Of a stretch of 64,000 bases of DNA, positions 3,108-58,867 are shown piece by piece. Source of the DNA: Bacillota bacterium (GTDB lineage: Bacteria > Bacillota > UBA4882 > UBA10575); contig DUNX01000022.1 of NCBI GenBank assembly GCA_012839115.1, positions 1 through 64,000 on the forward strand. Direction: 5' to 3'. The notes under the pieces are model-generated. The model made no database searches and was not told the DNA's origin. It worked only from the letters and a program-made list of their open reading frames with translations. The position numbers and the translations under genes are program-made. The number at the start of each line of letters is the position of its first letter. Position 1 is the first letter of the stretch.

Positions 3108-5522
3108 TCAAAACTGACTGACCACCAGTTCCACGCGGCTGCTACGGCCGTGGTCATCTTCACAGACCACCTGGTGTTTTCCGGGGTTAGGCAGGTAGAA
3201 AAGGGTTTCCCCCGGGACGGCTGTCCCCTGGAGCACGCCGTTGACAAACCAGTAGAGTTTCTGGACTTCGCTACCGGCAGCGGCTTCCAGGGCGATCTTC
3301 TGGAATTCCGCGGGGATCCCCGGCCTGAGGTAATAGTGGGAATCCGCGGCGGGTGAGCGGATTTCCGGGCCGGCGCCGGGCAGGGTCTTATGGGTCTCCG
3401 GCAGTAAGGGAGGGAGTTCCTCAAAAAGATAACCGTTCTGCCTGAACCAGGCAGCGACCCGGGGCGGCCAGTTGATATAGGTTTTTTCCATTACGGAACG
3501 GCCGGCGACCCGGTCCGGCGGCAGCCGGTAGCCGGTGGCGGCGTCCAGCAGTGTGCTCCGGTGGAGAGAACAGGTGGCAATAGGTGAAGAGTTGGTCAGG
3601 TAAAGGTCGGTGATTAATGTCCCGCAGTGCGGTCCCGGCGGTTGGCCACTGAGGGCACAGACCGCCCGCTCGCGCACGTTATTGGGGCGTTGGAACCAGG
3701 CGACCGGCGCGCGCCCGTCCATCCGGCTGAAAAGGTCGAAAAGCAGGGGTGCGGCCGCTTCCGCCCCGATTAATCCCGGCCGTCCTTCGCCGGAAAAATT
3801 GCCAACCCAGACCCCGACGGTGAAACGGGGGTCATAACCTATGCTCCAAGCGTCCCTGTACCCGTAAGAAGTACCGGTCTTCCAGGCTACAGCCGGGAGG
3901 GTGGAAAACTCCCAACAAGAGGGGAGATCCGGGCGGTCCAGTTCCTGAAGGATACCGGTGATGATATAGGCGGCGCCTTCATCAAAGAGCTTTGTGCGGG
4001 CATGCGGGGGCGGCGCCTGTCCGGGTTGGAATACCGGGTAGACATATTCCCCGCTGTTGGCCAGGGCGGAATAAAGCGCGGCAAGTTCCAGCAAGGTGAC
4101 TTCACAGCCGCCCAGGACAAGGGAGAGACCGTAATGCTCCGCCGGGTGAATGATGGTGGAGAGGCCAGCCCTGCGCAAAAGCTGGTGGAGCCCGTTCTCG
4201 CCCAGTTGGGCCAGGAGATTGACGGCAGGCACATTCAGGGAACGTCGCAGAGCTTCCCTGGCGGTAACTATTCCATTATAGGTGCGGTCAAAATTGATCG
4301 GGGAAAAACCGCTGTAATCTACGGGTACATCCTCCAGGTACTGGGCGGGGGTGATCAGCCCCTTCTCCAATGCCAGGACGTAAAGAAAAGGTTTTAAGGC
4401 CGAACCCGGCGACCGGGGAGCCAGATAGCCGTTGACCTGCCCTCCGGTACGCTCGTCAAAAAAATTGACGGACCCGACAGCGGCCAGCAGTTCATGGGTG
4501 CGGTTATCCAGGACCACCACCGCACCGTTGGTGATCCCCTCCGGGCGCAAGCCGGCAATATGGGCGGCCAGCAATTCTTCACAGAAAAGCTGGAGGTCCC
4601 GGTCGATGCTGGTATAGATCCGGGCCTCCGCCGGGTGGCGGTTCCTCATCTCCTGGGCAAAATGGGGGGCAATAAAGGGGAGGGGGCTCCGTTCCCCGGG
4701 CACCTCTTCCAGCAGGGCCCGGTGGTATTCATCAGCCGTCAAGAGGCCATGCCGGTAAAAACGGGCGAGCGCCCGGTCCCGGGCTAGCCGGGCCTCTCCG
4801 GGGTGGAGATCCGGCCGGTAACGGTTGGGCGATTTGGGCAAGATGGTCAGGAGGGCGGCTTCAGCGATGCTCAGGTCCGACGGTTCCTTCCCAAAATAGA
4901 GCCAGGAGGCGGCGGCCACCCCTTCAATATTCCCCCCGTACGGGGCCATGTTGAAATAGATCTCCAGCAGTTCTTTTTTGCTGTACCGCTGTTCCAGTTG
5001 GCAGGCGCGGAAGACCTCCCGGAACTTGGCTGTCCAGGTCCGGGGTTTTGGCTCCATCATCCTGGCGATCTGCATACTGATGGTCGATCCCCCGGCGACA
5101 ATGGCTTTGGCGCGCAAGTTCTGGTAAGCGGCGCGCAGGAAAGAAAAGGGGTTGACCCCGGGGTGCCAGAAAAACCAGCGGTCTTCGTAGAAGACCAGAA
5201 ATTTCCGGAGCTCCGGGGAGATCCGGGCCAGCGGTGTCTGGAACCGCCATTTTTCGTCCTCGGAAGTGAAGGTCCGCAACAGCCGGCCCTGGCGGTCAAA
5301 GACCAGGGTGGCCGTGGGGCGAAGGAGCGCCTCTTCCGGGAAAGGCGTCAGTGCCAGGATAAGCTGGGCCAGGCAAAAAAGGAAGAAGAAGAGGAGAACA
5401 GCGGCGGTCAGCCGCTTTCCCTTTTTCCCCATTTTTGCCCACGCGCGCGCACACGCGGTATGCGCGCACGCCCACGCGTGCGAAGGCGTGACACCGGCCA
5501 GGCGTCTTTTCATTTCCCCCAT
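3108..5522 (-). CDS. pbpC: Penicillin-binding protein 1C (bifunctional transglycosylase/transpeptidase)
   Basis: Peptidoglycan synthase anchored by one N-terminal membrane segment (AAVLLFFFLFCLAQLILAL). A GT51 domain follows, with its catalytic Glu in YEDRWFFWHPGV and the GGSTISMQ motif. The penicillin-binding domain has SALK (serine nucleophile), SLN and KTG motifs, and a C-terminal BiPBP_C beta domain ends the protein. PBP1C occurs beside bacterial alpha-2-macroglobulin in many Gram-negatives, as here. Start is uncertain: ATGs at 5522, 5513 and 5432 share frame. The last gives about 774 residues, the usual size, but has no ribosome site; the first two follow GGGTAAG or GGGGGA. Between them lies a GC-repeat tract. 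Confidence 0.92.
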   Translation of the reverse strand: MGEMKRRLAGVTPSHAWACAHTACARAWAKMGKKGKRLTAAVLLFFFLFCLAQLILALTPFPEEALLRPTATLVFDRQGRLLRTFTSEDEKWRFQTPLARISPELRKFLVFYEDRWFFWHPGVNPFSFLRAAYQNLRAKAIVAGGSTISMQIARMMEPKPRTWTAKFREVFRACQLEQRYSKKELLEIYFNMAPYGGNIEGVAAASWLYFGKEPSDLSIAEAALLTILPKSPNRYRPDLHPGEARLARDRALARFYRHGLLTADEYHRALLEEVPGERSPLPFIAPHFAQEMRNRHPAEARIYTSIDRDLQLFCEELLAAHIAGLRPEGITNGAVVVLDNRTHELLAAVGSVNFFDERTGGQVNGYLAPRSPGSALKPFLYVLALEKGLITPAQYLEDVPVDYSGFSPINFDRTYNGIVTAREALRRSLNVPAVNLLAQLGENGLHQLLRRAGLSTIIHPAEHYGLSLVLGGCEVTLLELAALYSALANSGEYVYPVFQPGQAPPPHARTKLFDEGAAYIITGILQELDRPDLPSCWEFSTLPAVAWKTGTSYGYRDAWSIGYDPRFTVGVWVGNFSGEGRPGLIGAEAAAPLLFDLFSRMDGRAPVAWFQRPNNVRERAVCALSGQPPGPHCGTLITDLYLTNSSPIATCSLHRSTLLDAATGYRLPPDRVAGRSVMEKTYINWPPRVAAWFRQNGYLFEELPPLLPETHKTLPGAGPEIRSPAADSHYYLRPGIPAEFQKIALEAAAGSEVQKLYWFVNGVLQGTAVPGETLFYLPNPGKHQVVCEDDHGRSSRVELVVSQF
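5441..5482. repeat. Alternating purine-pyrimidine GC tract in the pbpC 5' region
   Basis: About 42 bases of ACGCGCGCGCACACGCG-type sequence between alternative pbpC start codons. A second short tract lies at about 5530-5544. Each is preceded (plus-strand reading) by a similar CCCCATT-T-T-CCCAC context, so the tract and its flank appear duplicated. Confidence 0.65.
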
Positions 5523-5707
5523 TCTTACCCACGTGCGTGTACTAATCTTCTCCAGTAAACTCTCTGCATTTCCGTCACGGGCACATGGGTGCGCGACCCT
5601 GGCCGGCCACCCCGGCGCCCGGCGAGCCCGGGCAAGGAAAAGGGAAAGATGCGACAGGAAAAGCGAAAGATACGAAGAGATTCTTCTGTTCTCCCTTTGT
5701 TTCCTGG

Positions 5708-5755
5708 TCATTTCCGGTCACTACTCCATGTCGTTATTTCCGGTCACTGCTCCGC
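5708..5755. repeat. Short direct duplication over the A2M stop codon
   Basis: ATTTCCGGTCACTRCTCC occurs twice about 26 bases apart. One copy covers the last codons and stop of the A2M gene, the other lies just beyond it in the gap to pbpC. This looks like a small tandem duplication. Confidence 0.6.
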
Positions 5756-8700
5756 ATCTTCCCCGGAGCCGGCGCCGCGTGGGATGACAGCCAGGTAGCC
5801 GCTGCCGGCCACGCTTTGGATTTCCGGCTCATAGATGCATTCCGCCTTGATTGGCGGTAAGAAGAATTCGCCACAGGCCACCGCCCGCAGGGCGTAATAG
5901 AACCGGTAGGTCCCCGCCTTCCGGAGGCTGGTGAAGAGGAGCAACCGGTCATCCCTGATATCCATGTAGTCGACAGGGAAATCATCCTTCCGGGCCAGCC
6001 AGGGGATGCTTTCCCGCGACTGGAGGCGGGGGTTTTCGATCTCCAGCCCGGAGGGAAGGAGATCGACAATGGCGATATTCTCCAGGTTATCTTCCATGGC
6101 GACCAAGGTAATCTCGGCAATTACCAGATCTCCCTGGGTGATCCGATCCGGCGCCAGCGGTCTACCGGTCCGGTCCAGGTATTCACGGCGAACAGTGAGG
6201 CCCCGGTCGTACTCGGAAACGGTCAGCCGTCGCGGGACACCGCTGCTGTTCAGGAAATAGTAGCACTCGCCCTCACCCTCGATCCTGACGGTCAGTTCGC
6301 CCTGGGCGAGACGGGCTTCGCTGAGCTTAAACTCTTTATCACTGTCAAAACGGGCTATGACCGAACCGTCGAGGAGGACTTCGCCTTTGTAATTCCCGGC
6401 CGTCTTTTTCCGGGCAATTTTCCCCAGGGCCATCATGGCAAAGGCATTTTCCTGGGTCGTACCCCAGCGCCCCGGTTTCGCCGCCTGGTTCAACCGGTTC
6501 ACCAGCCGGTAGGTGGCGGTGTTCTCCGGGTCAATATCAGCCAGGGCGCTCAGGATAATGGCGTCGGCGCGGACCGGGGAGTTGAAGTTGCCACCGGTTT
6601 CCCGGCGTTGTCCCGAGGAAGCGGCGGTGGTTGCCGGCAGTAGAGACATGGCGGTTTCCCGGTCGCCGGCATAAAAGTAGGCAGCGGCCAATTGGGCACG
6701 GGAGTAATGGCTCAACTTGCTGAACTGGTGGTTTTTGATATAGGCCATGGTGCTCAACTGGGGCCGGCCGGCGAGGCTCAAGACATACAAGGCATAGACC
6801 CGGCATTGCAAAGCATGGGCCTTGTCATCGCTCCCTTTCGTCAGGAATTGCATGTAGGAAAGGGCGTTTCTATATACCCGGTCGGCCACGGCGTAACCGG
6901 CCTTCCGCGCCTCCACCAGGAAATGCGTGGCATAGATCGAGCTCCAGGTGTTACCGTAGGTACCGCCCGGCCAGTAGAGAAAGCTCCCATCCCGCAGGCT
7001 CATGCTTTCGATGATTTCGATCCCCGCCTGCAGGAAGGTGGCGGCGTTCCCGCCTTTAAAAACGTCGCTGCCGGCGATCCGCGCCAGGTCGTCGAAGTAG
7101 AGCAGGGGGAAGATCTTGGAGGTGATCTGTTCCAGACAGCCGTAAGGGTACTGCAGCAGGTAACGGAGGCTCCCGGCCAATTGCAGATCAGGGAAGGGGG
7201 CCAGGGTCAGGGTGTACTCCTCCGTACCGGGGAACCACTCATCCTCAACCTTTACCACCAGGGGCTGATCAGCGGTGACCGTCCCGGAGAAAAGGTGCTG
7301 GGTGAAGGGTACCGGCGGGCGGACCGGCAATTCTTCAGTATGCTCCACCTGTACATTCTTGCCGGAAGCGGTCAAAGTGAAACTGACCTTGCCAATGGCT
7401 TCTCCGGCCTCCAGGGTGAAAAGGAGATTTTTTTCTTCCCCTGCCGCCAGGCGCAGGCTTTGCTTTGCCGGGCCGGTCACGGTAACCGGGCCGTCGGCCG
7501 CCAGGGAAAGCTGGAATTCACCGGTTTCCCCCGTGCCGTTGAAGACAGAGACCGGAACAGTAAACCGGTCGCGCGGTGCGACAAACCGGGGGAAGGTCGG
7601 CGTGAGCACCACCGGCTCCCGGACAATCCGCTTTTCTTGGGCCGCCCCGAACTTGTCGCCATCAAAGGCCACGGCCATCAGACGCAGGGTCCCGTTGAAT
7701 TGAGGGATTTTTAACTTGACTTCGGCCTCTTTCTCTTTATTGAGGGTCAGGATTCCCGACCACAAGGAGACCGGGATCACCCGGCGGAGGGAGACCGGGG
7801 TCAGATGACGCCTCCGGGCGGCGTCCTCATCCGCCATGCCGCCTGCGGGTGGTCCTGGCGTCATCGCCGGTTCCACCTCCGGCAGGAGCATCCCGTAAAG
7901 ATCATAACTGGCAACCGCCAGTTGTTTTTTCCCATAGAAGAACCCCATCGGGTCAGGCCCGGTGTAGCCGGTCAACTGGCAGATCCCTTCGTCGACCGCC
8001 GCCAAGGTCAGCCGGGTTCCTTCCCCGGCTCCCGGCACGGCTATTTTTACTTTGATCTCTGTGTGCGGCCGGATCTCATCCGGCGCTTCCAGGTGCAGGG
8101 CCAGCCTTTGCCCGGAGGTCGCCAGCGGGAGGGAGACAGTACCAAAAGCCCTGGCTGGAGTAGTTTTATCCCGGTCGCCGGGCGTCCGGAGCAGGTGGAC
8201 GGTGACATAAACATTGGGCAGGTACTCTTCTTTTACCGGAATGGAGACCACCCCGGTATTCTCCGGCAGGTCGATCATCTGGTAACTGTAGACCTTTTCG
8301 CGTTCTACGGTTACCAGTGCCTTGCCGGTAAAGGGCGCTTTAATCTGGACCTGTGCGGTCTCCCCCGGACGGTAGGAGGATTTCTCCAGGGTAAGCTGGA
8401 CTTTGTCCGGGTTATCCATCGCCCAGGGGGCAAAGCCCCAGCCGCTGGCGTAAAAACTCAGGGAGGCCTGGACGCCTTGTTCCATGGTGTCGCGGATGAC
8501 GATCTGGTAGCGCCCGTAATCCTTGGGGATATACCGGAAGACCTGTTCCCCGCTGGCGGCCGGCAACTCTTCGCTGTGGACCTTTATCTTTTCCTCTACC
8601 GACTGGAAACGGTAACGGCCTTCCGCATCCCGCCGGTATACGCTCTGCCAGGTGATGCGGTAAACCTCCGCCACCAGGCTGGAGGCCTCGATGGGCTGGC

Positions 8701-11197
8701 CTTCCCTGTTCAGAACCACATAACCGGCGGCGTATTCATTGCCAACTTGCCCGTACCCCTCGCTGAGCGGCTTGATCCCGATATACCGGCGGTAGGGGTA
8801 AAGTTCAACGCTCTGGTAAGCGCTGACCGCCCGGCCGCCCTCTTCGCTGACGGTAGCCTGGAAGACGGCGTTAATTATGGCAGGGGGCGCGAGCGCCATT
8901 GGGAATATATAGGAAAATTCGGCACGTCCCTCTTCATCCAGGGTTTTTTCACCTAATTCCTGGTGAATGGGGGTAAAACTCCGCTCGCGGTCGCCAAAGG
9001 TGTATGAACCATAACCGGCCGGGCGGAAATCCTTTGCCTCCAGGGTCACCTTGACCCCGGCCCGGCGCCCGGCAGCGGGCGGGCCGAAAAGGTTGACCCC
9101 TTCCACCAGGAGGGTAGCCCGGGTTCCCGGGGAGTAGGTGGAACGGTCGGCGGTGAGCGTCACTTTAATCCGGTCCGGCATAAACTCTTCCACACTGAAA
9201 GAAGCGGAACCGGTGGCCTCTTCGGCAATAAGCGCCCGTACCGAATATTTGCCGGTTTGTGCGTATTCGGGAATGGGTAACGAAAACTCACAGATCCCCT
9301 GGTCCCTGGTGTTACCCAGTAATTCCCGGAAAACCTGGCCGTCGGGTTGGCGGATCTCCAAACGGACCGGAAACTCCGGCGGGACCGTGACTTGCGGGCC
9401 ACGGACGACCGTGACCAGGTTGGCGGTATCCCCGGGGCGGAAAATATCCCGGTCCATGTAGATGAAGGTCTCGTACCCCTTTTCCAGGGTGGGACGGCCG
9501 CGGGTATCGAAATCGGCCATGGCGATCCGGCTGTCATTAAACTTGATAAAGGAAAAGTCCTCTCCTTCTTCGGCCAGGATAATAAAGGGCTCGAACTCTT
9601 CCCGTATCGTTCTGAGGTTGCGGAAGACGGCAACCCCTTGATTGTCCGTAGTGGCTGTGGCCATGGTCTGATTATTCTTGCTGAAGAGGGTTACGCTGAC
9701 CCGGGGTTTCGGTTTCAGATCCGTGAGGGAATTGACCCAGACCAGGAGGTCGTCGCCGCTCATCTTGGCGACCATCCCCAGGTCGGTGATGAACACATTT
9801 TTCAGGTCCCGGCGCCAACGGTAATCATGATCATAAGCGATTACCTGGAAAAACCCGCGGTGGGCGCCGGTCAGGTATTCGCCAAGGCTGATTGGTGTGG
9901 TTACCACCTGGTTTTTGGCGCTGGGGATCTCGATCACCTCTGATTCGATGACCTTGCCCATATGGGAGATGCCATACGAGTAATAAGCCGCATAGTAGTC
10001 GGAGTTATTAAAAAAGGTCACCAGGTTGTTCCTGTAGATCTTGCGGATTTCCAGGTTCACCCGGTCCACGTTGACCGTTTCCAGGCCCAGGTTAAGATGG
10101 CCGCGGCTGGAAAGGTACCGCCCGGGGGAGTTAAAGTTAAGGCTGGGTTCCAGATCACTAAAGGTGACAACCTGGGAGAAATCGCGGGCCAGCGGGTAAC
10201 CATCGAGGGCGGGCATACCGGCCAGGATTGTCATAGTGTAGCTGGCATGCGGTTGAAAACCGTTACTTCTGAGCAGGACCGTATTGCCCTTTCCCTCTAC
10301 CCGGAAAGAGACCTCCGGCCGGATCTGAATAAAGTTGGCGATGGAATCAAGTTCCGGCGGTTCTGAAAAGTTCAGGGCAATCCAAAGCGAGGTCTCATCA
10401 TTCTGCGGTGCGACACCGGTGACCGCCAGGGTTTTCTTCTCCCCGATCACCCGGGTTATTTTGAAATCATCGGCCAGGCCCAGGTCGCCTTCACGCCCCC
10501 GGAAACCCCGCGGCAGGAGCAACTCGACAACCTGCTGCTTGTCGGTGCGGGTCAGAGGGTCGCTGAGAAAAAGGAAAGACCGGCCGTTCTCTTGGTTTTG
10601 GAGGTGATAGCCGATGGCCCGGCCGTCCTGGAACCGTAATTGCAAGTGCTTTTGGAGTTCTTCGTGGTCGACCGGGTGGTTGAAAACCATCCGGATCTCC
10701 GCCACCAAACCTTTTGTTGCCGGCGGTTGCGGCGTTTTCAAATTGATCGCCGCGCTTTCCACATTTATCCGCGGGGTGGAAAACTCAATCTTCCGGCGGC
10801 CGGCGAAATTCTGCCGTTCAGCCAGGAAGAGACCGGGGTTAACCTCCGCACTGTAGGAAGTGGAAGGCCGGAAGGGGATTTCCGGGAGAAAGAGCAGTTC
10901 CTTCCGGGAAACCCACCGGAATCTACCCGGGACCTCCGGAGTGAACTGCACCAGCGGCTGGTCGATGGTTTTTCCAACCTCCTCCTCGGCCACCACCGGT
11001 CTGGAAAAGGTAAAGGTCAGATTGGAGCGCAGGTCAACATCACCGGCAGGCCGCGTCTCGACCAGGCGGATACTGTCGCCGCCCAAAACCAATCCTTTGC
11101 TAAGGAGAAAAACTACGGCCAGGAAAAACAGAACTACGAAAGGCAAGAGCAACCATAAAATCTTCTTATGTTTCTTCCCAACAATCACAGCAGCCAT
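5744..11197 (-). CDS. Bacterial alpha-2-macroglobulin family protein, thioester-containing
   Basis: About 1,817 residues. A cytoplasmic Lys-rich start and one membrane segment (ILWLLLPFVVLFFLAVVFLL) anchor a large extracytoplasmic chain of macroglobulin-type beta domains. The thioester motif CLEQ is intact at about residue 1354 (YPYGCLEQ), in the helical thioester domain. Such proteins trap attacking proteases and work with PBP1C, whose gene lies 220 bases downstream. In known bacteria this pair guards the periplasm, which hints at an outer membrane. Start: ATG at 11197 with GAGGAGG eight bases upstream; the frame is open further upstream to 11281 but across the promoter. Confidence 0.92.
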   Translation of the reverse strand: MAAVIVGKKHKKILWLLLPFVVLFFLAVVFLLSKGLVLGGDSIRLVETRPAGDVDLRSNLTFTFSRPVVAEEEVGKTIDQPLVQFTPEVPGRFRWVSRKELLFLPEIPFRPSTSYSAEVNPGLFLAERQNFAGRRKIEFSTPRINVESAAINLKTPQPPATKGLVAEIRMVFNHPVDHEELQKHLQLRFQDGRAIGYHLQNQENGRSFLFLSDPLTRTDKQQVVELLLPRGFRGREGDLGLADDFKITRVIGEKKTLAVTGVAPQNDETSLWIALNFSEPPELDSIANFIQIRPEVSFRVEGKGNTVLLRSNGFQPHASYTMTILAGMPALDGYPLARDFSQVVTFSDLEPSLNFNSPGRYLSSRGHLNLGLETVNVDRVNLEIRKIYRNNLVTFFNNSDYYAAYYSYGISHMGKVIESEVIEIPSAKNQVVTTPISLGEYLTGAHRGFFQVIAYDHDYRWRRDLKNVFITDLGMVAKMSGDDLLVWVNSLTDLKPKPRVSVTLFSKNNQTMATATTDNQGVAVFRNLRTIREEFEPFIILAEEGEDFSFIKFNDSRIAMADFDTRGRPTLEKGYETFIYMDRDIFRPGDTANLVTVVRGPQVTVPPEFPVRLEIRQPDGQVFRELLGNTRDQGICEFSLPIPEYAQTGKYSVRALIAEEATGSASFSVEEFMPDRIKVTLTADRSTYSPGTRATLLVEGVNLFGPPAAGRRAGVKVTLEAKDFRPAGYGSYTFGDRERSFTPIHQELGEKTLDEEGRAEFSYIFPMALAPPAIINAVFQATVSEEGGRAVSAYQSVELYPYRRYIGIKPLSEGYGQVGNEYAAGYVVLNREGQPIEASSLVAEVYRITWQSVYRRDAEGRYRFQSVEEKIKVHSEELPAASGEQVFRYIPKDYGRYQIVIRDTMEQGVQASLSFYASGWGFAPWAMDNPDKVQLTLEKSSYRPGETAQVQIKAPFTGKALVTVEREKVYSYQMIDLPENTGVVSIPVKEEYLPNVYVTVHLLRTPGDRDKTTPARAFGTVSLPLATSGQRLALHLEAPDEIRPHTEIKVKIAVPGAGEGTRLTLAAVDEGICQLTGYTGPDPMGFFYGKKQLAVASYDLYGMLLPEVEPAMTPGPPAGGMADEDAARRRHLTPVSLRRVIPVSLWSGILTLNKEKEAEVKLKIPQFNGTLRLMAVAFDGDKFGAAQEKRIVREPVVLTPTFPRFVAPRDRFTVPVSVFNGTGETGEFQLSLAADGPVTVTGPAKQSLRLAAGEEKNLLFTLEAGEAIGKVSFTLTASGKNVQVEHTEELPVRPPVPFTQHLFSGTVTADQPLVVKVEDEWFPGTEEYTLTLAPFPDLQLAGSLRYLLQYPYGCLEQITSKIFPLLYFDDLARIAGSDVFKGGNAATFLQAGIEIIESMSLRDGSFLYWPGGTYGNTWSSIYATHFLVEARKAGYAVADRVYRNALSYMQFLTKGSDDKAHALQCRVYALYVLSLAGRPQLSTMAYIKNHQFSKLSHYSRAQLAAAYFYAGDRETAMSLLPATTAASSGQRRETGGNFNSPVRADAIILSALADIDPENTATYRLVNRLNQAAKPGRWGTTQENAFAMMALGKIARKKTAGNYKGEVLLDGSVIARFDSDKEFKLSEARLAQGELTVRIEGEGECYYFLNSSGVPRRLTVSEYDRGLTVRREYLDRTGRPLAPDRITQGDLVIAEITLVAMEDNLENIAIVDLLPSGLEIENPRLQSRESIPWLARKDDFPVDYMDIRDDRLLLFTSLRKAGTYRFYYALRAVACGEFFLPPIKAECIYEPEIQSVAGSGYLAVIPRGAGSGEDAEQ

Positions 11198-11252
11198 GGC
11201 TTGCACCTCCTCAATGGATAAGGGCCCTGAACATAGGGCATCGCGTGCGCGC

Positions 11253-11281
11253 AATATATATAGGGACCGGATAATTGACAA
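11253..11281 (-). promoter_or_regulatory. Promoter for the A2M-pbpC operon
   Basis: On the minus strand TTGTCA (11281-11276) and TATATT (11258-11253) are 17 bases apart. The start point would fall within an alternating GC tract at 11241-11252, which is one of the dispersed repeats. The A2M start codon lies about 55 bases downstream. Confidence 0.65.
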
Positions 11282-11511: not shown

Positions 11512-13875
11512 GTGCGATATGGATATTTCGACGATCAGCGGGGGGAGTATGTAATTGAAAGGCCGGATACGCCCATGTCTTGGATTAATTACTTGGGCAC
11601 GATGGATTATTGCGCAATTATTTCCAATAATGCGGCGGGATACTCTTTCTACCGTTCGCCTAAAAGCGGGAGGATGCTGCGGTTCAGGTTTAACAGTATC
11701 CCCATGGACCGGCCGGGCCGGTATATTTACCTCCACGACCACAAGAGCGGGGACTATTGGTCCGCCACCTGGCAACCGGTGGCCAAGCCCCTTGAGCAAT
11801 ACCGGTCGGTTTGCCGGCACGGGCTGGGTTATACCTGTTTTGAAAGTGAGTATGACGGGATAAAAACCAACTACCGGGTCTTTGTCCCGGTTGACCGCCC
11901 GTTGGAGATCTGGGAGGTTGAGGTGGAGAACCTTTCCGGCCAGGAACGCGACCTTTCTCTCTTCTCTTATGCCGAATGGTGTTTTTGGCATATAGACCAG
12001 GATTTAATAAATTTCCAGTACATTTTATATACCTGCCGGATGGGCTATGACGGCGACGGGATTATCGACTATACCCTGCGCTGGCCCGGGGGTGAAGAGG
12101 ATAAAGGGTTTATGGCTTCGGTGCTGCCGGTGACCGGTTTTGATACCGACCGGGAGGTTTTTATCGGTCCTTACCGGGATGAGGGGAGACCGGTGGCGGT
12201 GGAGAAGGGATCCTGTGGCAATTCGATTGCCGTCGGCGGTAATGCCTGCGCTGTCCTGCAAAACCGTTTCGTTTTGGCTCCCGGTACGAAAAAGCGGGCG
12301 GTCTTTCTTGTCGGGGTCGGCGATGCCCGGACCACCGGACGGGAGATCCGGGATTATTACTCCCACCCTGATGCGGTGGGAAAAGACTTTGCCGCCCTGC
12401 AGGAGTACTGGCGGAAGCGCCTGGCCAACTACGGGTGCAAAACACCGTCGCCGGTGGTGGACACCATGGTGAATATCTGGAACCAGTACCAGTGCCACAC
12501 CACCTTCAACTGGTCCCGTTCGGCTTCCTTTAATGAAGCCGGCGGCCGCGACGGCATCGGCTACCGCGATACCAACCAGGATACCCTGGGTGTGGTCCAC
12601 GCCATCCCGGATCTGGTCCGGGAGAAACTGTTGGTGCTCCTCAAAGGGCAATTGTCCGAGGGTTATGCCATGCACGGCTTCCAGCCCCTCTCTTGGAGCC
12701 AGGGGTCCCACAATATCCCGGAACCGGGGCGGATCTTCTCCGACGACCACCTTTGGTTGCTCCTTTCTGTACCCGCCTATATTAAAGAGACCGGTGATTT
12801 TGCCATTCTTGAAGAGGTGGTACCTTTTGCCGACCGGGAAGAGGCCACCGTTTACGAGCATCTCCGGCGGGCCCTTGAATTCTCCTGGGAAAAGCGGGGG
12901 CCCCACGGGCTTTTGCTGGGCCTGGCAGCTGATTGGAACGACTGTATCAATTTAAAGGGGAAAGGGGAAAGCATCTGGAGTACTTTCCTCTATTACCGGG
13001 CTTTGACCGAATTTGTTGAGTTGGCCCGGAGGACGGGGAAGGATGCCGATGTGCAACTCTTCACGGAGCGACGGACCGGGATCAAGGAACTCCTCGATAC
13101 CCATGCCTGGGACGGGGAGTGGTTTCTCCGGGGTTACCTGGACAGCGGCCGCAAACTGGGCGGGCGGGAGAGCGAGCAGTCGAAGATCTTCCTCAACAGC
13201 CAATCCTGGGCGGTCTTTTCCGGAGCCGCCACCGGGGAAAAAGCCCGCATGGCTTTGGACAGTATGCACCGTTATCTCGTAACCGAGCACGGCATTGTCT
13301 TGAACCACCCGGCTTACCGGGAGACCGACAACGAGATCGGGGCCATCACCAGCTTTCCTGGGGGCCTTAAGGAAAATGCGGGGATTTTCTGCCATGCCAA
13401 CACCTGGGCGGTGATTGCCGAGTGCCTCTTGGGCCGGGGCGACAAGGCTTTTGCCCTCTACACCTCCTTCCTGCCGGCCGCCAAGAACGACCGGGCGGAT
13501 CTTTACACAATGGAGCCCTATGTTTATGCCCAGTTCATTACCGGCATCGACCACCAGTATCATTTCGGGCGGGCCCGCAATTCCTGGCTGACCGGGACCG
13601 CCGCCTGGAGCTTTGTCGCGGTTTCCCAGTATATCCTGGGGATACGCCCGGACTACGACGGCCTGGTCATCGACCCCTGCATCCCGGCGGAGTGGGACGG
13701 CTTCGAGGCGACTAGGATCTGCCGGGGGAAAACCTTCCGGATTAAGGTGAAAAATCCGTCCCGTACCGGTTACGGTGTGAAAGAACTTAAAGTAAACGGC
13801 AGGGTTCTTCCGGGGAACCTCATCCCCTATGCAGAGGCGGCGGAAGAGAACGAGGTCGAAGTAACCCTGGGCTGA
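11512..13875 (+). CDS. GH94 disaccharide phosphorylase, probably N,N'-diacetylchitobiose or cellobiose phosphorylase
   Basis: 787 residues, the usual length of GH94 phosphorylases. The N-terminus (RYGYFDDQRGEYVI, then NAAGYSFY and RPGRYIYL) and C-terminus (WLTGTAAWSF, GFEATRICRGKTF) follow the family closely, with a strong resemblance to chitobiose phosphorylase as I remember it. The catalytic general acid is Asp474 in the ADWND motif. The enzyme would cleave a beta-linked disaccharide with phosphate to sugar-1-phosphate plus free sugar in the cytoplasm, saving ATP. Substrate is inferred. Start is GTG with GGGAGG seven bases upstream. No sugar transporter is adjacent. Confidence 0.88.
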   Translation: MRYGYFDDQRGEYVIERPDTPMSWINYLGTMDYCAIISNNAAGYSFYRSPKSGRMLRFRFNSIPMDRPGRYIYLHDHKSGDYWSATWQPVAKPLEQYRSVCRHGLGYTCFESEYDGIKTNYRVFVPVDRPLEIWEVEVENLSGQERDLSLFSYAEWCFWHIDQDLINFQYILYTCRMGYDGDGIIDYTLRWPGGEEDKGFMASVLPVTGFDTDREVFIGPYRDEGRPVAVEKGSCGNSIAVGGNACAVLQNRFVLAPGTKKRAVFLVGVGDARTTGREIRDYYSHPDAVGKDFAALQEYWRKRLANYGCKTPSPVVDTMVNIWNQYQCHTTFNWSRSASFNEAGGRDGIGYRDTNQDTLGVVHAIPDLVREKLLVLLKGQLSEGYAMHGFQPLSWSQGSHNIPEPGRIFSDDHLWLLLSVPAYIKETGDFAILEEVVPFADREEATVYEHLRRALEFSWEKRGPHGLLLGLAADWNDCINLKGKGESIWSTFLYYRALTEFVELARRTGKDADVQLFTERRTGIKELLDTHAWDGEWFLRGYLDSGRKLGGRESEQSKIFLNSQSWAVFSGAATGEKARMALDSMHRYLVTEHGIVLNHPAYRETDNEIGAITSFPGGLKENAGIFCHANTWAVIAECLLGRGDKAFALYTSFLPAAKNDRADLYTMEPYVYAQFITGIDHQYHFGRARNSWLTGTAAWSFVAVSQYILGIRPDYDGLVIDPCIPAEWDGFEATRICRGKTFRIKVKNPSRTGYGVKELKVNGRVLPGNLIPYAEAAEENEVEVTLG

Positions 13876-14057: not shown

Positions 14058-16928
14058 GTGAAAGTCTTTTGGCATAGGCGACAATCGATTTTTATCTCTA
14101 TCTTCATGTTTGGGTTATTCCTGGCCGCAACCGGCAAGCCGGCGGTTGCCGGAATGCTGACCATGGAGACGCCGCATTTTAATATTCATTTTCGCGACAA
14201 TCCACATGCAGAAGAGACTGCGGCCCAGGTGGCGGGGATCGCCGAAGAGATCCACGCCACGCTTACGGAACGGATCGGGTATAAGCCCGCGGGGCGTACG
14301 GAGATCCATCTTCTTGAGACCTCCGATTTTGCCAACGGTTTTGCTGACGTAAGCTATTATAACCGGATCGGGATTTATCTGGTTTCTCCTACAGGAGAGA
14401 CGGGATGGACCTCCGGCCTTAGCATGAAGGTTGAAAGCTGGCTGCGGTTGGTGCTGACCCATGAGTATGCCCATATCCTGCACTTGGATATGAACGGGGG
14501 AGCTATCGCCGGTCTGCGCAGGATTTTTGGACGGGTACCTTATTTAACCACCCCGAATTTTATCCTCACAAACGCGTATATTGAAGGGTTTGCCGTCTAT
14601 GCGGAGACGGTTAATACCGGCGGCGGGCGGGGCGTGGATCCTTATTACGATATGTTTCTCCGGACAGCGGTCCTTACGGATACAGTTCCCACCTTCGACC
14701 AGATGCTTGGTATTTATTCACTGGACAACTGGCAGCCGGCGGGAACAGCCTATCTTTACGGCTGGTCACTGGTGGATTATATCGCCCGGCGGTACGGAGA
14801 AGAAAAATTGGCGGCAATTAACCAAAGCGCCGGCAGTTTGCGGACGATTGGTCTTTTTTCGGCACTAACCAGAAGTTTAGGCCTTTCCCCCCGGGTTTTC
14901 TGGGAGGAATGGCGCCGGGATTTGGAAGAACGCTACCAAGCCCAGGCCGCAGAGTTGGCAGCCGGCGGGCTCACAACTTTTGAAGAATTGACCGGCTCGG
15001 TGTTGGCAGCGCAACCTGCTTTCAGTCCGGACGGGAAGAGTCTTGCCTATATAACCCTGGGGAAAAAGACATTTTACCCCGGCCTTTACCTGCGTGATTT
15101 GTTATCCGGTGAAGACCAACAACTGGTGGCAGGGAGGGTTACCTCGCGGCCGGCCTGGTCTCCTGACGGGCGCTATTTGGCCTATACCAAACCGGACTAT
15201 GTTGACGAAGAAAGGCTATATAACGATATTTACCTTTACGATCTGGAACGGGGAGAGGAGAGACGGTTAACCCGGGGGGCCCGGGCCAAAGACCCGGCTT
15301 GGTTCCCTGCGGGCGATCGTCTGGTTTATGTAGCCTATGACAACCTGGAGACCTATTTATGCGGGTACGACCCGGCCACTGATGAGAGCGGGATAATATA
15401 TGCGGGCAGCAGGGAAATGCAATTTGCCACCCCGGTCTTCTCCCTGGACGGGGAGGAACTGGCGGTGGGGGTCTGGTTCCCCGGCGGCTACCATGGGATT
15501 GCCCTCCTAAAACATGACGGGTCCGATTTCCGCCTGCTCCTCTGTGACCAGGCCAATAACCGCAACCCGGTTTTTACCCCGGATGGCAAATATATCCTTT
15601 TTGACTCTGATCGCGATGGTACGCATAATATCTATGCCTTAGCCCCGGCTACAGGGGTTTTGCAAAAACTCACCAGTACGCTGACGGGTTTTTTTACTCC
15701 CGCTCCTGCGCCCAGGGGAGAAGAACTGGTCATAATGGCCTACGGGGCGGAGGGTTACCGCCTGGCCCGGGTGCGCCGGGAGGATCTTTCTTGGGAGCAA
15801 GTATCCTTTGCGGTGGAAACACCTCCCGCAGTTGCGATCAGCACCCCTACCAGTCTTGAAACGGAAAAATACCCGGTAAGAAAATACAGCCCCCTTCAGA
15901 CCCTAAAGCCCAAATACTGGCTGCCTGTTATAGAAGAAGATGCCGCCAAAGGCCTGCGGCTTGGGATCATGACCGGAGGTATGGACGTTCTGGAACGCCA
16001 TTCGTATCTGCTCCAGGTTTCTCACGGTTTCAAGAGCGGGAAACCCAATCTCCTCCTGGACTATTGGTATGACCCGCCTGGGCGCGCCGCCTTCTGCCTG
16101 CGGTTAGGTGCGGTCACGAAGAAGGCTGGAGCTGGAATTTGGTATAACCATTATACGCTTGATGCGGGAATCAGCCTTCTGTTCCCCGGTCTTTCAGTAA
16201 ACCAGGAAATTTTCAGCGGGTTTTCTCTGGAGCAGAGCGTGAATCAGCCGCCTTCGCCTGTACCGGAGGAAACACCGGTTTCCGGGTTGCTATATGCAGG
16301 CGTAAATGAACTGAAGGTCAGCGGTGAAGGGACGGCAAGCCACCGCCGCGAAAGAGGATTTGTGGCAGAATTCTGCTTTACCGGGCAGGAAACCGGTCTT
16401 GCCGGGGAGGGGTTTTGGAAAAAAGCCTGGCTCCTGCGGGGGGTGTCCCGGACTGCGCTAAAGATCTCCGCCGGCTTCTCGCAGTTGCCCGGGTATTTTC
16501 CGCTCGGGGGGCCTCATACCCTCGAACAATGGGAGAATATTTCCACTGGCAACCTGGGTGAGAGATATACGGTGCGCGGGTTCGACCCTGGCACTGTCAC
16601 GGGTAGCGGCTTTTTCTTACTGAATGCCGAAACCTACCCGTTCCGCATTCCGGTGGAAAAGGGCTTGTGGGATTGGCCAATCTTCTTTCGCCAAGTCAGG
16701 GGCGGGGGTTTTTTGGATGCCGGTTATGCGGCAGACAGTTGGGATTTTACTGAATCTGGCCTGATTGTCGCGGCGGGTACGGAGATCCGGTTGACCATGG
16801 ATTTTCTGTACGGGCCCAACACGTTGGATTTCCGGTTAGGGGCGGCTTGGCCCCTTTATCCGCGGGTACATGCGGGGAGCGAAGCCGGCGGCTGCCGTTT
16901 TTATATCGGGATGAGCAGCGAGTTTTAG
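14058..16928 (+). CDS. Secreted peptidase-MA / TolB-like propeller / Omp85-like barrel protein
   Basis: About 956 residues. A signal peptide (IFISIFMFGLFLAATG) ends near residue 33. A peptidase-MA-like zinc metalloprotease domain follows, with HEYAH at 135-139 and a downstream Glu in EGFAVYAE near 176. The middle has repeated PD40/TolB-type blades (FSPDGKSLAYI, WSPDGRYLAYT, FTPDGKYILFDSD). The last 300 residues are beta-rich and contain VRGF at about 839-842, like the loop-6 motif of Omp85 proteins, and the chain ends in Phe, the classical outer-membrane barrel signature. The start GTG follows AAGGGAG. The barrel call is inference from motifs; the protease and propeller calls are firmer. Confidence 0.75.
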   Translation: MKVFWHRRQSIFISIFMFGLFLAATGKPAVAGMLTMETPHFNIHFRDNPHAEETAAQVAGIAEEIHATLTERIGYKPAGRTEIHLLETSDFANGFADVSYYNRIGIYLVSPTGETGWTSGLSMKVESWLRLVLTHEYAHILHLDMNGGAIAGLRRIFGRVPYLTTPNFILTNAYIEGFAVYAETVNTGGGRGVDPYYDMFLRTAVLTDTVPTFDQMLGIYSLDNWQPAGTAYLYGWSLVDYIARRYGEEKLAAINQSAGSLRTIGLFSALTRSLGLSPRVFWEEWRRDLEERYQAQAAELAAGGLTTFEELTGSVLAAQPAFSPDGKSLAYITLGKKTFYPGLYLRDLLSGEDQQLVAGRVTSRPAWSPDGRYLAYTKPDYVDEERLYNDIYLYDLERGEERRLTRGARAKDPAWFPAGDRLVYVAYDNLETYLCGYDPATDESGIIYAGSREMQFATPVFSLDGEELAVGVWFPGGYHGIALLKHDGSDFRLLLCDQANNRNPVFTPDGKYILFDSDRDGTHNIYALAPATGVLQKLTSTLTGFFTPAPAPRGEELVIMAYGAEGYRLARVRREDLSWEQVSFAVETPPAVAISTPTSLETEKYPVRKYSPLQTLKPKYWLPVIEEDAAKGLRLGIMTGGMDVLERHSYLLQVSHGFKSGKPNLLLDYWYDPPGRAAFCLRLGAVTKKAGAGIWYNHYTLDAGISLLFPGLSVNQEIFSGFSLEQSVNQPPSPVPEETPVSGLLYAGVNELKVSGEGTASHRRERGFVAEFCFTGQETGLAGEGFWKKAWLLRGVSRTALKISAGFSQLPGYFPLGGPHTLEQWENISTGNLGERYTVRGFDPGTVTGSGFFLLNAETYPFRIPVEKGLWDWPIFFRQVRGGGFLDAGYAADSWDFTESGLIVAAGTEIRLTMDFLYGPNTLDFRLGAAWPLYPRVHAGSEAGGCRFYIGMSSEF

Positions 16929-22335: not shown

Positions 22336-22908
22336 ATGTGGTTTTATGAAAAAAAGCTTCAATACCCAGCCAAGGTAGGCCGGGCAAATTTACGGATGGC
22401 CAAGTACCTGATTACCCAGTATGGCGGGCCGGATGGGGAATTGGCCGCTTCTTTGCGTTATCTCACCCAGCGGTATACCATGCCAACCGGCCAGGCCAAA
22501 GCCATCTTAACAGATATCGGCACCGAAGAACTGGCCCACCTTGAGATCATTGCTACCTTGGTTTATAAACTGATGGACCGGTCGACCGTAGGGGAGATTG
22601 AAGCCGCCGGCTTGGGCGCATATTACGCCGACCATGACAAAGCCCTTTATTATGTGAATGGCGAGAGTGTTCCCTGGACCGCCGCGTATATCCAGTCCAA
22701 GGGAGACCCGGTGGCGGATCTCCATGAAGATATGGCTGCCGAGGAAAAAGCAAGGGCTACCTATGAATGGTTAATTAACCTCTCCGACGACCCGGATCTC
22801 AACGATACCTTGAAATTCCTCAGGCAAAGGGAGATCGTACATTTCCAGAGGTTTGGCGAAACCCTGCAGCTTGTCCAGGAGCATCTGGACAGCAAGCGGG
22901 TTTACTAG
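22336..22908 (+). CDS. cotJC: Spore coat manganese catalase CotJC
   Basis: 190 residues of the manganese-catalase four-helix bundle. Likely metal ligands are in TDIGTEELAHLE, in AAEEKARATYE and in REIVHFQRFGE. In spores CotJC is a coat-associated enzyme thought to detoxify hydrogen peroxide. It is the last gene of the cotJ operon and has a terminator 78 bases downstream. Ribosome site AAGGAGAAAAGG precedes ATG. Confidence 0.93.
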   Translation: MWFYEKKLQYPAKVGRANLRMAKYLITQYGGPDGELAASLRYLTQRYTMPTGQAKAILTDIGTEELAHLEIIATLVYKLMDRSTVGEIEAAGLGAYYADHDKALYYVNGESVPWTAAYIQSKGDPVADLHEDMAAEEKARATYEWLINLSDDPDLNDTLKFLRQREIVHFQRFGETLQLVQEHLDSKRVY

Positions 22909-24349: not shown

Positions 24350-24758
24350 CCTGCGGAATGATTCCTGCGGACCAACTGCACCGGGCAACCGCAGACGCAG
24401 GCGCCGAAAGGCGGCGTCTGAGGAAAGTCCGAACTCCACAGGGCAGGGCGCTGGATAACGTCCAGTGGGGGTGACCCCAAGGAAAGTGCCGCAGAAAAGA
24501 AAACGCCGAATGCGGTCCTCTAGGACCGTTCATGGCAAAGCTGAAACGGTGCGGTAAGAGCGCACCGGCGGCTGAGCAATCAGCCGGCCTGGTAAACCCC
24601 GCCTGGAGCAAGACCGAATAGGAGGGGAGAAAGTGGCCCGCTTTTCCCTCGGGTTAGGTCGCACGAGGCGGTAGGCGACTACCGTCCCAGATAAATGGTT
24701 GCCGCCGGTCGCATGCGTGACCGGAACAGAATTCGGCTTACAGGCGCAGTTGGTAAAA
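24350..24758 (+). ncRNA. rnpB: RNase P RNA (type A)
   Basis: Catalytic RNA of RNase P, which trims the 5' ends of tRNA precursors. Universal segments are present in order: GAGGAAAGTCC near 24420, ACAGGGCAGGG, GGAAAGTGCC, the GGTGCGGTAAGAGCGCACC block near 24547 and GGTAAACCCCGCCTGGAGCAA near 24591. Near the 3' end come CAGATAAATGG and ACAGAATTCGGCTTA. The end helix P1 is formed by CCAACTGC near 24372 and GCAGTTGG near 24746. A terminator follows directly. Exact 5' end is an estimate. Confidence 0.95.
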
Positions 24759-52129: not shown

Positions 52130-53095
52130 ATGGCCACAGGGTTTTATCTTGGTATCGACGTGGGGTCGGTCAGCACTAATCTGGTGGTTATTGACGAAAA
52201 AGGTTCCATAGTGAAGAAAATATACCTGCGGACAGAGGGAAAACCCATAGCTTCTGTACAGAGGGGCCTGAACCAACTCGGGGAGGATTTTAAAGACCAT
52301 GAGATCCTGGGGGCGGGGGTGACTGGTTCCGGGCGGAAACTCATTGGCAAGGTAATCGGCGCCGATCTGGTTAAGAATGAGATCACCACCCATGGCGTTG
52401 CGGCTTTGCAGGTTCATCCCGGGGTCAAGACGGTGTTCGAGATCGGGGGTCAAGACTCGAAGATTATAATTATCCGTGAAGGTACGGTCGTGGATTTTGC
52501 CATGAACACGGTTTGCGCGGCCGGCACCGGTTCCTTCCTGGATCAACAGGCGAAAAGGTTGAACATCTCCCTTGAGGAATTTGGCGGGTTGGCTCTGGGC
52601 GCAAAGGTCCCTGTACGGATCGCCGGGCGTTGTTCGGTCTTTGCCGAATCGGATATGATTCATAAACAACAGATGGGTTACAGGTTGGAGGATATTGTCG
52701 CCGGCCTTTGCGAAGCCTTAATGCGGAATTACTTCAACAACGTCGGGAAGGGCAAGGAGATCCTGCCGCCGGTCTTGTTTCAGGGGGGCGTCGCCGCGAA
52801 TAAAGGGATCAAGGCCGCCTTTGAGAAGGAGTTGGGATACGAGATTATTATTCCTGAGCACTATGAGGTGATGGGGGCCTGGGGCGCTGCCCTCTTATCC
52901 CGGAAAACCGGGAAAAAAATGGGGTTTCGCGGGTTTTCCTTGTCCGACCGGGAGATCCGGGTGGAGAGTTTTGAATGCCCGGACTGCCCCAACTGTTGCG
53001 AGATTGTCACCGTGGTCATTGACGGGGAAACAATCCCCGGCTGGGGCGGGCGCTGCGGAAAATGGGAAAAAGGGGTTTCCCGCGCCACCGGATAA
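52130..53095 (+). CDS. Acyl-CoA dehydratase activase (HgdC/BadF-type ATPase)
   Basis: 321 residues. ASKHA ATPase fold: GIDVGSVSTNLVVID phosphate loop, GIGGQDSK-like EIGGQDSK and FQGGVAANKG. The [4Fe-4S] cysteines of the dimer are in VCAAGTGSFLDQQ and GRCSVFAESDMIH. The C-terminus has extra cysteines (CPDCPNCCE), possibly another metal site. Activases inject electrons into 2-hydroxyacyl-CoA dehydratases using ATP. No dehydratase is adjacent. ATG with AAAGGAG upstream. Confidence 0.9.
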   Translation: MATGFYLGIDVGSVSTNLVVIDEKGSIVKKIYLRTEGKPIASVQRGLNQLGEDFKDHEILGAGVTGSGRKLIGKVIGADLVKNEITTHGVAALQVHPGVKTVFEIGGQDSKIIIIREGTVVDFAMNTVCAAGTGSFLDQQAKRLNISLEEFGGLALGAKVPVRIAGRCSVFAESDMIHKQQMGYRLEDIVAGLCEALMRNYFNNVGKGKEILPPVLFQGGVAANKGIKAAFEKELGYEIIIPEHYEVMGAWGAALLSRKTGKKMGFRGFSLSDREIRVESFECPDCPNCCEIVTVVIDGETIPGWGGRCGKWEKGVSRATG

Positions 53096-53133
53096 AGGCG
53101 CAACCTGGCTTTGACAAAGAGGGGCTAAGACCG

Positions 53134-54798
53134 ATGAAAAAACGCAGGGGCTTACGGCAACCCATACCGGTTTCGCGCGCACGCGAGCAAGGGAAAACGG
53201 AGAAAGCCGGACGGGTCGCGCGCGCGTGCACGGGGGAGAAGGGAGCAGCGGACGCCCGGGAAACCACCGGCGCGTGCGCGCGCGGGCTCTCCCCGGAACT
53301 TGCAAAAAACGTGGAATATCTGAAAGAAAAGATCGGCCGCAGCGACGATGTGGTTTTCCGGGACTACACTTTGGAACTGCCGGAACAAGTTCCCATAGTA
53401 GTCGTGTTTGTTGACGGGCTGGCGTCCAAAGAGATTATTAATGAATATATCCTCGAGGCGTTAACCTTTAAGGGCGAACTGAAGAGCGAATGGACCCGGG
53501 ATAAGAAAAACCTGGTCCGGCATGTCAAAGACAAGGTCCTCAATATCAACGAGGTAAGGCTCGTCAACGGCCTGGATGAGCTCATCACCCCTATCCTTTC
53601 CGGGGAGGCGGCGGTCCTCTTTGACGGATATGCGGAGGCATTAATCTGCAATACCAGGGGCTGGCCTTACCGGAGTATTGACGAACCCGAAACCGAGGCG
53701 GTGATTCGCGGGCCGCGGGTGGGGTTCACAGAAACCCTCCGTTTCAACACCGCACAGGTCCGGCGCTGGATCCGGGATCCGGATCTGCGGGTCAAAGTAA
53801 CAAAGGTGGGCCGGCGCTCCCAAACCGATGTTGCCCTGGTTTATTTGGAATCTGTGGCCAATCCACAGGTTGTTGCGGAAGTCGAGCGCCGGTTGGGGAA
53901 GATCGATATCGACGGGGTGATGGAGAGTTCAACTCTTCAGGAGATGATTGAAGACCGGAGATTATCCCTTTTCCCCACCATCCAGAGTACGGAAAGGGCG
54001 GACCGGGTTGTGGCTGCTGTTTTAGAAGGGAAAGTCGGGATTATTACCGACAACACCCCGTTTGCCCTGATTGTCCCGATCAGTTTTTGGGAGTTTTACT
54101 ACGCGGCGGAAGATTACTACCACCGGTGGCCCATGGCCCTTCTCCTCCGGATTGTCCGGTTTTCATCCTTTTTTTTCTCGCTTTACCTGCCTTCTCTCTA
54201 TGTTGCCTTATCCTTCTACAACCCGGAGTTAATCCCTTTCCCCCTTGCGGTCCAGCTCGCCGGGAGCAGGGAAGGGGTGCCGTTCCCGCTTTTCCTGGAG
54301 GTCCTCTTAATGGAGCTGGCTATAGAGATTATCCGGGAGGCCTCGGCCCGGCTTCCCGGCCCTCTCGGGCAGACCATTGGTATTGTCGGCGGTTTTATCC
54401 TGGGAGACGCGGCCGTCCGCGCCGGTTTGATCTCACCTTTGACTACGGTGGTGGTGGCTTTGACGGCCATCTGTTCCTTTACCTCGCCCAATTTTGGGGT
54501 GGCCATTTCCATCAGGATTCTCCGCTTTCCTTTGGTGGTTGTGTCTTTGGTGGGAGGCTTGTACGGGCTGGCCCTGGCCACATTTGTCTTGCTTGTTTAT
54601 ACGACCAGGATCCGTTCTTTCGGGGTTCCATTTTTGACACCCTTTATCCCCTTGCAGCCGGACGATCTCAAGGACAGCCTGGGGCGGGCCCCGTTCTGGG
54701 CGATGGTAAACCGGCCGCGCAGTTATAAACCGCTGGATACAAAACGGCAGAAAACAAAAGCCCGGAACTGGTGGGAACGGTTGTTTTCCGGAAAATAG
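53134..54798 (+). CDS. gerA: Spore germination receptor subunit A (GerA family)
   Basis: About 554 residues. A basic N-terminal extension of some 55 residues rich in Arg, Ala and Gly is encoded by three alternating GC tracts. The conserved region begins at LSPELAKNVEYLKEKIGRSDDVVFRDY, followed by GLASKEIINEYIL and the PYRSIDEPETEAVIRGPRVGFTE motif and several membrane segments. With the next two genes it forms a germinant receptor in the spore inner membrane. ATG at 53134 after GAGGGG; downstream starts remain possible. Confidence 0.93.
   Translation: MKKRRGLRQPIPVSRAREQGKTEKAGRVARACTGEKGAADARETTGACARGLSPELAKNVEYLKEKIGRSDDVVFRDYTLELPEQVPIVVVFVDGLASKEIINEYILEALTFKGELKSEWTRDKKNLVRHVKDKVLNINEVRLVNGLDELITPILSGEAAVLFDGYAEALICNTRGWPYRSIDEPETEAVIRGPRVGFTETLRFNTAQVRRWIRDPDLRVKVTKVGRRSQTDVALVYLESVANPQVVAEVERRLGKIDIDGVMESSTLQEMIEDRRLSLFPTIQSTERADRVVAAVLEGKVGIITDNTPFALIVPISFWEFYYAAEDYYHRWPMALLLRIVRFSSFFFSLYLPSLYVALSFYNPELIPFPLAVQLAGSREGVPFPLFLEVLLMELAIEIIREASARLPGPLGQTIGIVGGFILGDAAVRAGLISPLTTVVVALTAICSFTSPNFGVAISIRILRFPLVVVSLVGGLYGLALATFVLLVYTTRIRSFGVPFLTPFIPLQPDDLKDSLGRAPFWAMVNRPRSYKPLDTKRQKTKARNWWERLFSGK
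53174..53284. repeat. Three alternating GC tracts within the gerA N-terminal codons
   Basis: CGCGCGCACGCG at 53174-53185, CGCGCGCGCGTGCACG at about 53217-53232 and CGCGTGCGCGCGCG at 53271-53284. All three are alternating purine-pyrimidine and lie in the poorly conserved N-terminal extension, keeping the frame open. Confidence 0.7.
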
Positions 54799-54897
54799 GA
54801 GACAAGGGGCGGTTTCACGTCCTGCTTGGATAGACAGGGGACAGTTCCGTGGCCGATTTTGTTTTCCCCCGCGCACAGGAGAATCGGGAGAAGAAAA

Positions 54898-57856: not shown

Positions 57857-58846
57857 TCACCTAACCCCCAGTTTTTCCTGGAAGAAACGGAGTTTCGCTC
57901 CGGCGACGGCGGCGGCTTTCCCCGCCCCGGAGTCAAGGATCTCTTCAATCACCCCGGGTGCGCTGAGCTCTTTTACCTTCTCTTGGATTGGCCGGAGGGT
58001 CTCGGCGACCAGTTCCCCCAGGTCTTGTTTAAACTTGCCGTAACCGGCCCCGGAGTAACGGTTGGCAATGGTCTCCAGGGATTCACCGGAGCAGAGGGAG
58101 TAAATCACCATCAGGTTGGAGACCCCCGGTTTGTTCTCCTCGTCGTAACGGACCTCGTTCCCCGAGTCCGTAACGGCGCTCTTGAACTTCTTGACGATCA
58201 CTTCCGGCGGGTCGAGGAGGGCGATATAGCTCTTGGGGTTCTCATCGGATTTGGACATTTTTTTCTCCGGCTCAAGCAGGCTCATGATCCGGCCACCGGC
58301 CGACCGCGGCGGAGTGTAGGGTTCAGGGACGGTAAAGACCTTCTCGCCAAAACGGTTGTTGACCCGGATGGCGATATCCCTCGTTAGTTCCAGGTGTTGC
58401 TTTTGATCTTCACCCACCGGGACGAGATCCGCATCGTAGAGCAGGATATCCGCGGCCATCAACACCGGGTAGGTAAGCAGCCCGGCGGTGACGTTTTCGT
58501 GCCTGGTCGACTTATCCTTGAACTGGGTCATCCGGCGTAACTCGCCGATATAGGCCTGGCATTCCAGGAGCCAGCTCATTTCGGCGTGGGCGGAAACATG
58601 CGACTGGACAAAGATCGTGGAGACCTGGGGGTCAAGGCCGCAGGCCACAAAGAGGCGGGCGGTATTTTTTATATTTTCCCGTAGCGCCGCCGGGTCCTGG
58701 GGAACGGTTAGCGCGTGCAGATCAACCACACAAAAGAAACAATTGGTCTCATGTTGCAGGCGGGTAAAATTCTTAATCGCGCCCAGGTAATTGCCGAGCG
58801 TCAAGGCGCCGCTGGGCTGGACGCCGGAAAAAACGCGTTTTTGCAT
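57857..58846 (-). CDS. trpS: Tryptophanyl-tRNA synthetase
   Basis: 329 residues. VFSGVQPSGALTLGNYLGA contains the HIGH-equivalent GN motif, and EKKMSKSDEN is KMSKS. It charges tRNA-Trp. ATG at 58846 follows AAAGGAGG; the frame is open upstream through the T-box leader but that part is not protein-coding. Expression should rise when Trp-tRNA is uncharged, through the T-box. Confidence 0.97.
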   Translation of the reverse strand: MQKRVFSGVQPSGALTLGNYLGAIKNFTRLQHETNCFFCVVDLHALTVPQDPAALRENIKNTARLFVACGLDPQVSTIFVQSHVSAHAEMSWLLECQAYIGELRRMTQFKDKSTRHENVTAGLLTYPVLMAADILLYDADLVPVGEDQKQHLELTRDIAIRVNNRFGEKVFTVPEPYTPPRSAGGRIMSLLEPEKKMSKSDENPKSYIALLDPPEVIVKKFKSAVTDSGNEVRYDEENKPGVSNLMVIYSLCSGESLETIANRYSGAGYGKFKQDLGELVAETLRPIQEKVKELSAPGVIEEILDSGAGKAAAVAGAKLRFFQEKLGVR

Positions 58847-58867
58847 TTCTTTTCCTCCTTTGTTGTT

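Follow-up and report, generated by a model that had tools for sequence, protein, structure and literature searches.

A gene of the Bacillota raises the question of why a bacterium that appears to form spores should encode a secreted protein whose C-terminus resembles an outer membrane barrel, and what such a protein might do. The gene lies in a window of 64,000 nucleotides (the whole stretch of DNA that was analysed) from a genome (G000) of 2.35 Mb that is 97% complete. A preliminary description, made from the sequence alone, had proposed that a peptidase-MA domain, a TolB propeller and an Omp85-like barrel occur in this single secreted chain. That reading was borne out by Pfam, profile comparisons, AlphaFold2 and Foldseek.

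Domain organisation of the fused protein

The open reading frame starts with GTG at position 14058, preceded by a GGGAG-like site, and its stop codon ends at 16928. A longer in-frame reading frame opens at 13878; homologues of the 956-residue protein start at about 14058 (residue ~1). The signal peptide region is represented in the AlphaFold2 model by a helix at residues 2-26. The features of the protein, of its neighbours and of a split paralogue are listed in Table 1.

Table 1 Positions of the fused gene, its domains and motifs, adjacent genes and the split paralogue. Coordinates are those of the window unless a locus is named.
Feature	Coordinates	Strand	Extent	Basis or remark
Whole gene, peptidase-MA / TolB-like propeller / Omp85-type barrel	14058..16928	+	956 aa	
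Signal peptide region	14058..14153	+	residues 1-32	one hydrophobic helix; sequence
Peptidase-MA-like domain	14154..14963	+	residues 33-302	profile and alignment of 76 relatives
TolB-like beta propeller	14964..15836	+	about residues 303-593	PD40, TolB profile, Foldseek
16-strand Omp85-type barrel (predicted)	15912..16925	+	residues 619-956, strands 620-952	AlphaFold2, profiles, fold matches
VRGF, L6 motif between strands 11 and 12	16572..16583	+	residues 839-842	
FLDAG motif	16710..16724	+	residues 885-889	corresponds to FVDQG of TamA
GH94 glycoside phosphorylase	11512..13875	+		directly upstream of the barrel-protease gene; no known link
Bacterial alpha-2-macroglobulin	5744..11281	-		divergent from the GH94 gene; context; kept in both congeners
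Split pair	L051 8421-10115 and 10112-11233			G000 contig C121

The HEYAH motif, previously recognised as that of a metalloprotease, occupies residues 135-139. The gluzincin (clan MA) combination of HExxH and a downstream glutamate is found in 76/76 relatives, and residues H135, E136, H139, E176, E183, G190, R191, Y232 and G235 never vary among them, the pattern expected from a working gluzincin site. The putative downstream metal ligand is E176, as judged from an EG(x)A motif; the EG segment has weak profile similarity to M1 aminopeptidase. The best PDB profile matches of the first domain, all weak, were an M1-type aminopeptidase, an uncharacterised protein, a subunit of the ER membrane protein complex and collagenase ColG. 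The search with Peptidase_MA_2 (PF13485), proposed earlier as a check, gave a match in 14 of the 20 relatives scanned (best E 8.3e-7) but only a weak one in the window protein, which scored 18.7 bits against a cut-off of 32.4. There was no M48 or TPR match in the same Pfam scan.

PD40 blades, also part of the preliminary description, were detected in the window protein with E=2.7e-18. The family profile matches TolB with E 3e-54 and the Foldseek fold match is also TolB, with complexes of TolB and Pal among the propeller matches. The score for the TolB equivalog TIGR02800 (113.5 bits) lies below its cut-off of 343. No POTRA match was found among the 20 family members scanned.

AlphaFold2, given the alignment of 76 full-length relatives, returned a full-chain model with a mean pLDDT of 85.6 and a pTM of 0.90. 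A 16-strand barrel had been suggested for residues 650-956; the model contains exactly 16 strands, from 620-627 through 947-952, so the barrel stands while its start lies nearer residue 620 than 650. The same strands were obtained when the C-terminal 357 residues were modelled alone (pLDDT 77.8). The VRGF sequence, as described earlier, is present in this beta-rich region, within the long loop that joins strand 11 (798-807) to strand 12 (851-869) and that is the L6 position of Omp85 proteins; the terminal Phe is likewise there, the chain ending in SSEF. Every one of the 50 PDB structures closest in fold to the C-terminal model belongs to the Omp85 superfamily (FhaC, TamA, BamA, Sam50, Toc75 and CdiB), FhaC ranking first; their TM-scores near 0.5 indicate that the barrel fold is shared with Omp85 structures but that the superposition is not close. 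PF01103, also proposed earlier as a check, did not match the window protein itself; it did match 24/76 of the homologous C-termini and was the sole family to do so.

At profile level the family as a whole is similar to both BamA (E 2e-10) and TamA; with the C-terminal part alone the only match is TamA (E 2.7e-7). An RG[YF]-type motif occurs 95-140 residues from the end in 63/76 members, compared with 3% in shuffles, and a terminal aromatic residue in 42/76, compared with 15%. Within the barrel D643 is invariant and E909 nearly so (70/76), which hints that anchoring may not be the barrel's only task. The protein most likely sits in the outer membrane as an Omp85-type barrel.

Relatives, split paralogue and host genome

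A scan of the collection returned 80 loci, and 122 relatives were confirmed. Nearly all are labelled as diderm, including Myxococcota, Desulfobacterota, Acidobacteriota, Nitrospirota, Gammaproteobacteria and Spirochaetota, and further Bdellovibrionota, Aminicenantes, WOR-1 and diderm Bacillota such as the Halanaerobiaceae. All three parts of the design, peptidase, propeller and barrel, are present in 76 full-length relatives drawn from many phyla, and the metal-site residues do not vary among them. Searches of viral contigs gave no relatives, and those of plasmids gave propeller-level matches only, none over 80% of the query. A record titled as a Klebsiella pneumoniae MAG (L093) also contains a relative, and its label is probably wrong.

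Within the phylum of the source genome (n=200), strong peptidase-domain matches were found in 18/50 Omp85-positive versus 0/150 Omp85-negative genomes; as the genomes are related and were counted as independent, the Fisher p of about 1e-12 is only a guide. The Omp85-negative genomes gave weak peptidase-MA profile matches to shorter reading frames of ~280-330 residues, which probably represent a shorter soluble relative in monoderms. The family tree mostly follows the phyla, with weak deep branches; the clade of the window protein groups with the Halanaerobiaceae, other Bacillota and a candidate-phylum clade (support 85), a placement that is unsure. Horizontal transfer from one donor is unsupported, since the tree groups mostly by phylum. 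A special tie of the design to sporulation was rejected as well, since the architecture is pan-diderm and most relatives belong to phyla in which endospores are not known.

The design is also encoded in two pieces in the same genome, where a 564-residue peptidase-propeller gene overlaps the next one, a 373-residue barrel gene, by 4 bases. The stand-alone barrel matches PF01103, and hhalign of the split against the fused halves gave 98.9% for the barrel and 100% for the peptidase-propeller. The split pair is conserved in the family, with a family-level locus around it. Across the class, peptidase and barrel are fused in 18 reading frames and are otherwise adjacent genes: each strong barrel match in a fused-type reading frame of >800 residues has the peptidase in the same frame, and separate barrels adjoin a peptidase-propeller gene, with a few pairs cut by contig ends. 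This co-occurrence, fused or adjacent, argues that peptidase, propeller and barrel form one working unit.

The host had been taken for a diderm spore-former. The genome search recovered BamA, OmpH, TamB, LpxC, LpxD, LptC and LptF/G, and a single gene cluster holds TamB, BamA (with two POTRA stretches), OmpH, LpxD, LptF/G and LptC, and includes the trio TamB/BamA/Skp described from diderm Firmicutes (PMC5007114). Two Spo0A-type regulators are encoded in the genome, and of the genes named in the preliminary description, gerABC corresponds to window positions 53062-57209 (GerA/GerB/GerC-type proteins) and cotJ to 22336-22908 (a CotJC-type Mn-catalase). The outer-membrane set alongside Spo0A and gerABC thus supports a diderm spore-former by gene content. 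A search of the source genome for lptD with PF04453 gave no match; this profile matches only 2/14 control genomes and was judged insensitive because it is silent even in the diderm controls Synechococcus and Thermus. A 793-residue reading frame without a Pfam match, between lptC and lptF/G (L052 3650-6031, minus strand), is by its position a candidate LptD. The tamB-bamA-ompH-lpxD genes are directly adjoined by a gene for a 608-residue protein whose sequence includes a segment of S55 peptidase of the SpoIVB type (L052 15990-17816, minus strand, contig C94). A TamA-like protein of 428 residues, which matches Omp85 and, weakly, POTRA, is encoded at L053 312-1598 (plus strand).

Comparison with known systems and possible function

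By domain layout and description, the window protein falls in the WD40-Omp85 subfamily, the name given to the barrel/propeller combination in 2014 by Heinz and Lithgow (PMC4104836). As set out in the main text of that paper, the subfamily shares with it the C-terminal Omp85 barrel and the N-terminal TolB-like WD40/PD40 propeller without POTRA domains, and is functionally uncharacterised. The main text describes the propeller only, whereas the window protein has an invariant peptidase-MA domain before it; the comparison being with the main text, published members may carry the peptidase domain unremarked. Among the papers covered by a full-text search, none of later date used the name WD40-Omp85. 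PF00149 is a family of metallophosphoesterases. It is this domain, and not an HExxH peptidase, that the same main text gives for the 'Metallo' Omp85 subfamily, called metalloprotease-Omp85 (PMC4104836).

The patatin-like PlpD also has an enzyme domain before an Omp85 barrel, and this domain was shown to be periplasmic; it differs in being a homodimer with a patatin lipase and one POTRA domain where the window protein has a metalloprotease and a propeller (PMC11116518). BepA (YfgC), an M48 gluzincin, is an HExxH periplasmic metallopeptidase that acts on barrels at the outer membrane and degrades stalled LptD and BamA at BAM, but it is soluble, has a TPR domain and no barrel of its own, and belongs to another peptidase family, so that the likeness is one of working mode only (PMC8423444). 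TolB resembles the window protein in propeller fold and sequence but is soluble and periplasmic, lacks a barrel and has an N-terminal domain of its own. TamA and BamA share the barrel fold, the L6 motif (VRGF/RGY) and FxDxG, but have POTRA domains in the place of the peptidase and propeller.

We lean, with modest confidence, towards an outer-membrane-anchored periplasmic metalloprotease, somewhat BepA-like, that would serve in quality control of stalled or misfolded barrels and lipoproteins. The signal peptide would export the protein and the strongly predicted 16-strand barrel of the Omp85 type would insert into the outer membrane. The peptidase and propeller would remain periplasmic, since other Omp85 chains enter their barrels from the periplasm and the enzyme domain of PlpD was shown to lie there (PMC11116518). 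The peptidase, probably an active zinc gluzincin, would cleave proteins where the outer membrane faces the periplasm, coupling proteolysis to that membrane as the preliminary description had suggested, and the propeller may select or gate the substrates. By analogy with BepA (PMC8423444), quality control is the most likely role and the substrates would most likely be failed barrels and lipoproteins. The below-cut-off Peptidase_MA_2 score of the window protein speaks against this reading, as does the conservation of D643 and E909 in the barrel. Outside the genus or family, moreover, no conserved partner gene hints at quality control, and the genus-level neighbours are a GH94 enzyme and glutamate dehydrogenase. 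A bolder and rather improbable proposal is that these pan-diderm outer-membrane metalloproteases have an active barrel, in which lateral opening or substrate-barrel binding would feed failed barrels to the protein's own protease head; insertion and degradation would then be joined in one chain.

It is conceivable, though doubtful, that the protein is instead a BAM/TAM-type assembly or transport factor in which the propeller replaces POTRA and the peptidase has a secondary trimming activity. Retention of the Omp85 L6 and FxDxG motifs and of the conserved D643 and E909 would suit such a factor, as would the closeness of the barrel profile to TamA; it also fits the general function of the Omp85 superfamily, and a BamA-BamB-like fusion was proposed for WD40-Omp85 (both in the main text of PMC4104836). 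The peptidase site, however, is conserved as strictly as anything in the protein, and the genome already has BamA and the TamA-like protein. A type V-like system, in which the barrel would export the protease (with the propeller) for action on external proteins at the cell surface, is unlikely. In its favour, FhaC is the best fold match, and PlpD was first read as surface delivery (PMC4104836). Against it, the enzyme domain of PlpD was later shown to be periplasmic (PMC11116518), a folded propeller would be poor cargo, and in some relatives the peptidase-propeller is secreted as a protein of its own.

The closeness of the propeller to TolB, including its complexes with Pal, would be consistent with a structural tether, in which a catalytically dead or metal- or ligand-binding peptidase fold accompanies TolB-like binding of a Pal-type lipoprotein, but the invariance of HExxH and the glutamate (76/76) makes this very unlikely. 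Least credible is that the protein is soluble and secreted with a merely barrel-like C-terminus, as the missing PF01103 match of the window protein might imply; against this stand the AlphaFold2 model, the Omp85 fold matches, the profile matches, PF01103 in 24/76 C-termini, the barrel match of the split paralogue and the restriction to Omp85-positive genomes within the phylum.

POTRA-less Omp85 proteins have been listed since 2014 without a function. The protease site, invariant from Bacillota to Myxococcota and Acidobacteriota, makes it testable that some Omp85 barrels anchor or partner outer-membrane proteolysis. This widespread but unstudied design also adds a protein common to diderm spore-formers and classical Gram-negatives, and so is relevant to the question of an ancestral origin of their outer membrane.

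Gene neighbourhood

Synteny around the fused gene is at the genus level only (GH94, glutamate dehydrogenase, radical-SAM-like and alpha-2-macroglobulin genes), and no neighbourhood conserved across phyla was found. The GH94 gene is retained beside the barrel-protease gene in two congeners. A penicillin-binding protein 1C-type gene adjoins the single-copy bacterial alpha-2-macroglobulin gene (window 3108-11281, minus strand); the pair is divergent from the GH94 and protease-barrel genes, and its alpha-2-macroglobulin side is retained in both congeners. Elsewhere in the window are a class A RNase P RNA (24373-24756, plus strand) and a T-box leader (58892-59220, minus strand) just before the minus-strand reading frame 57857-59083, whose predicted start it overlaps.
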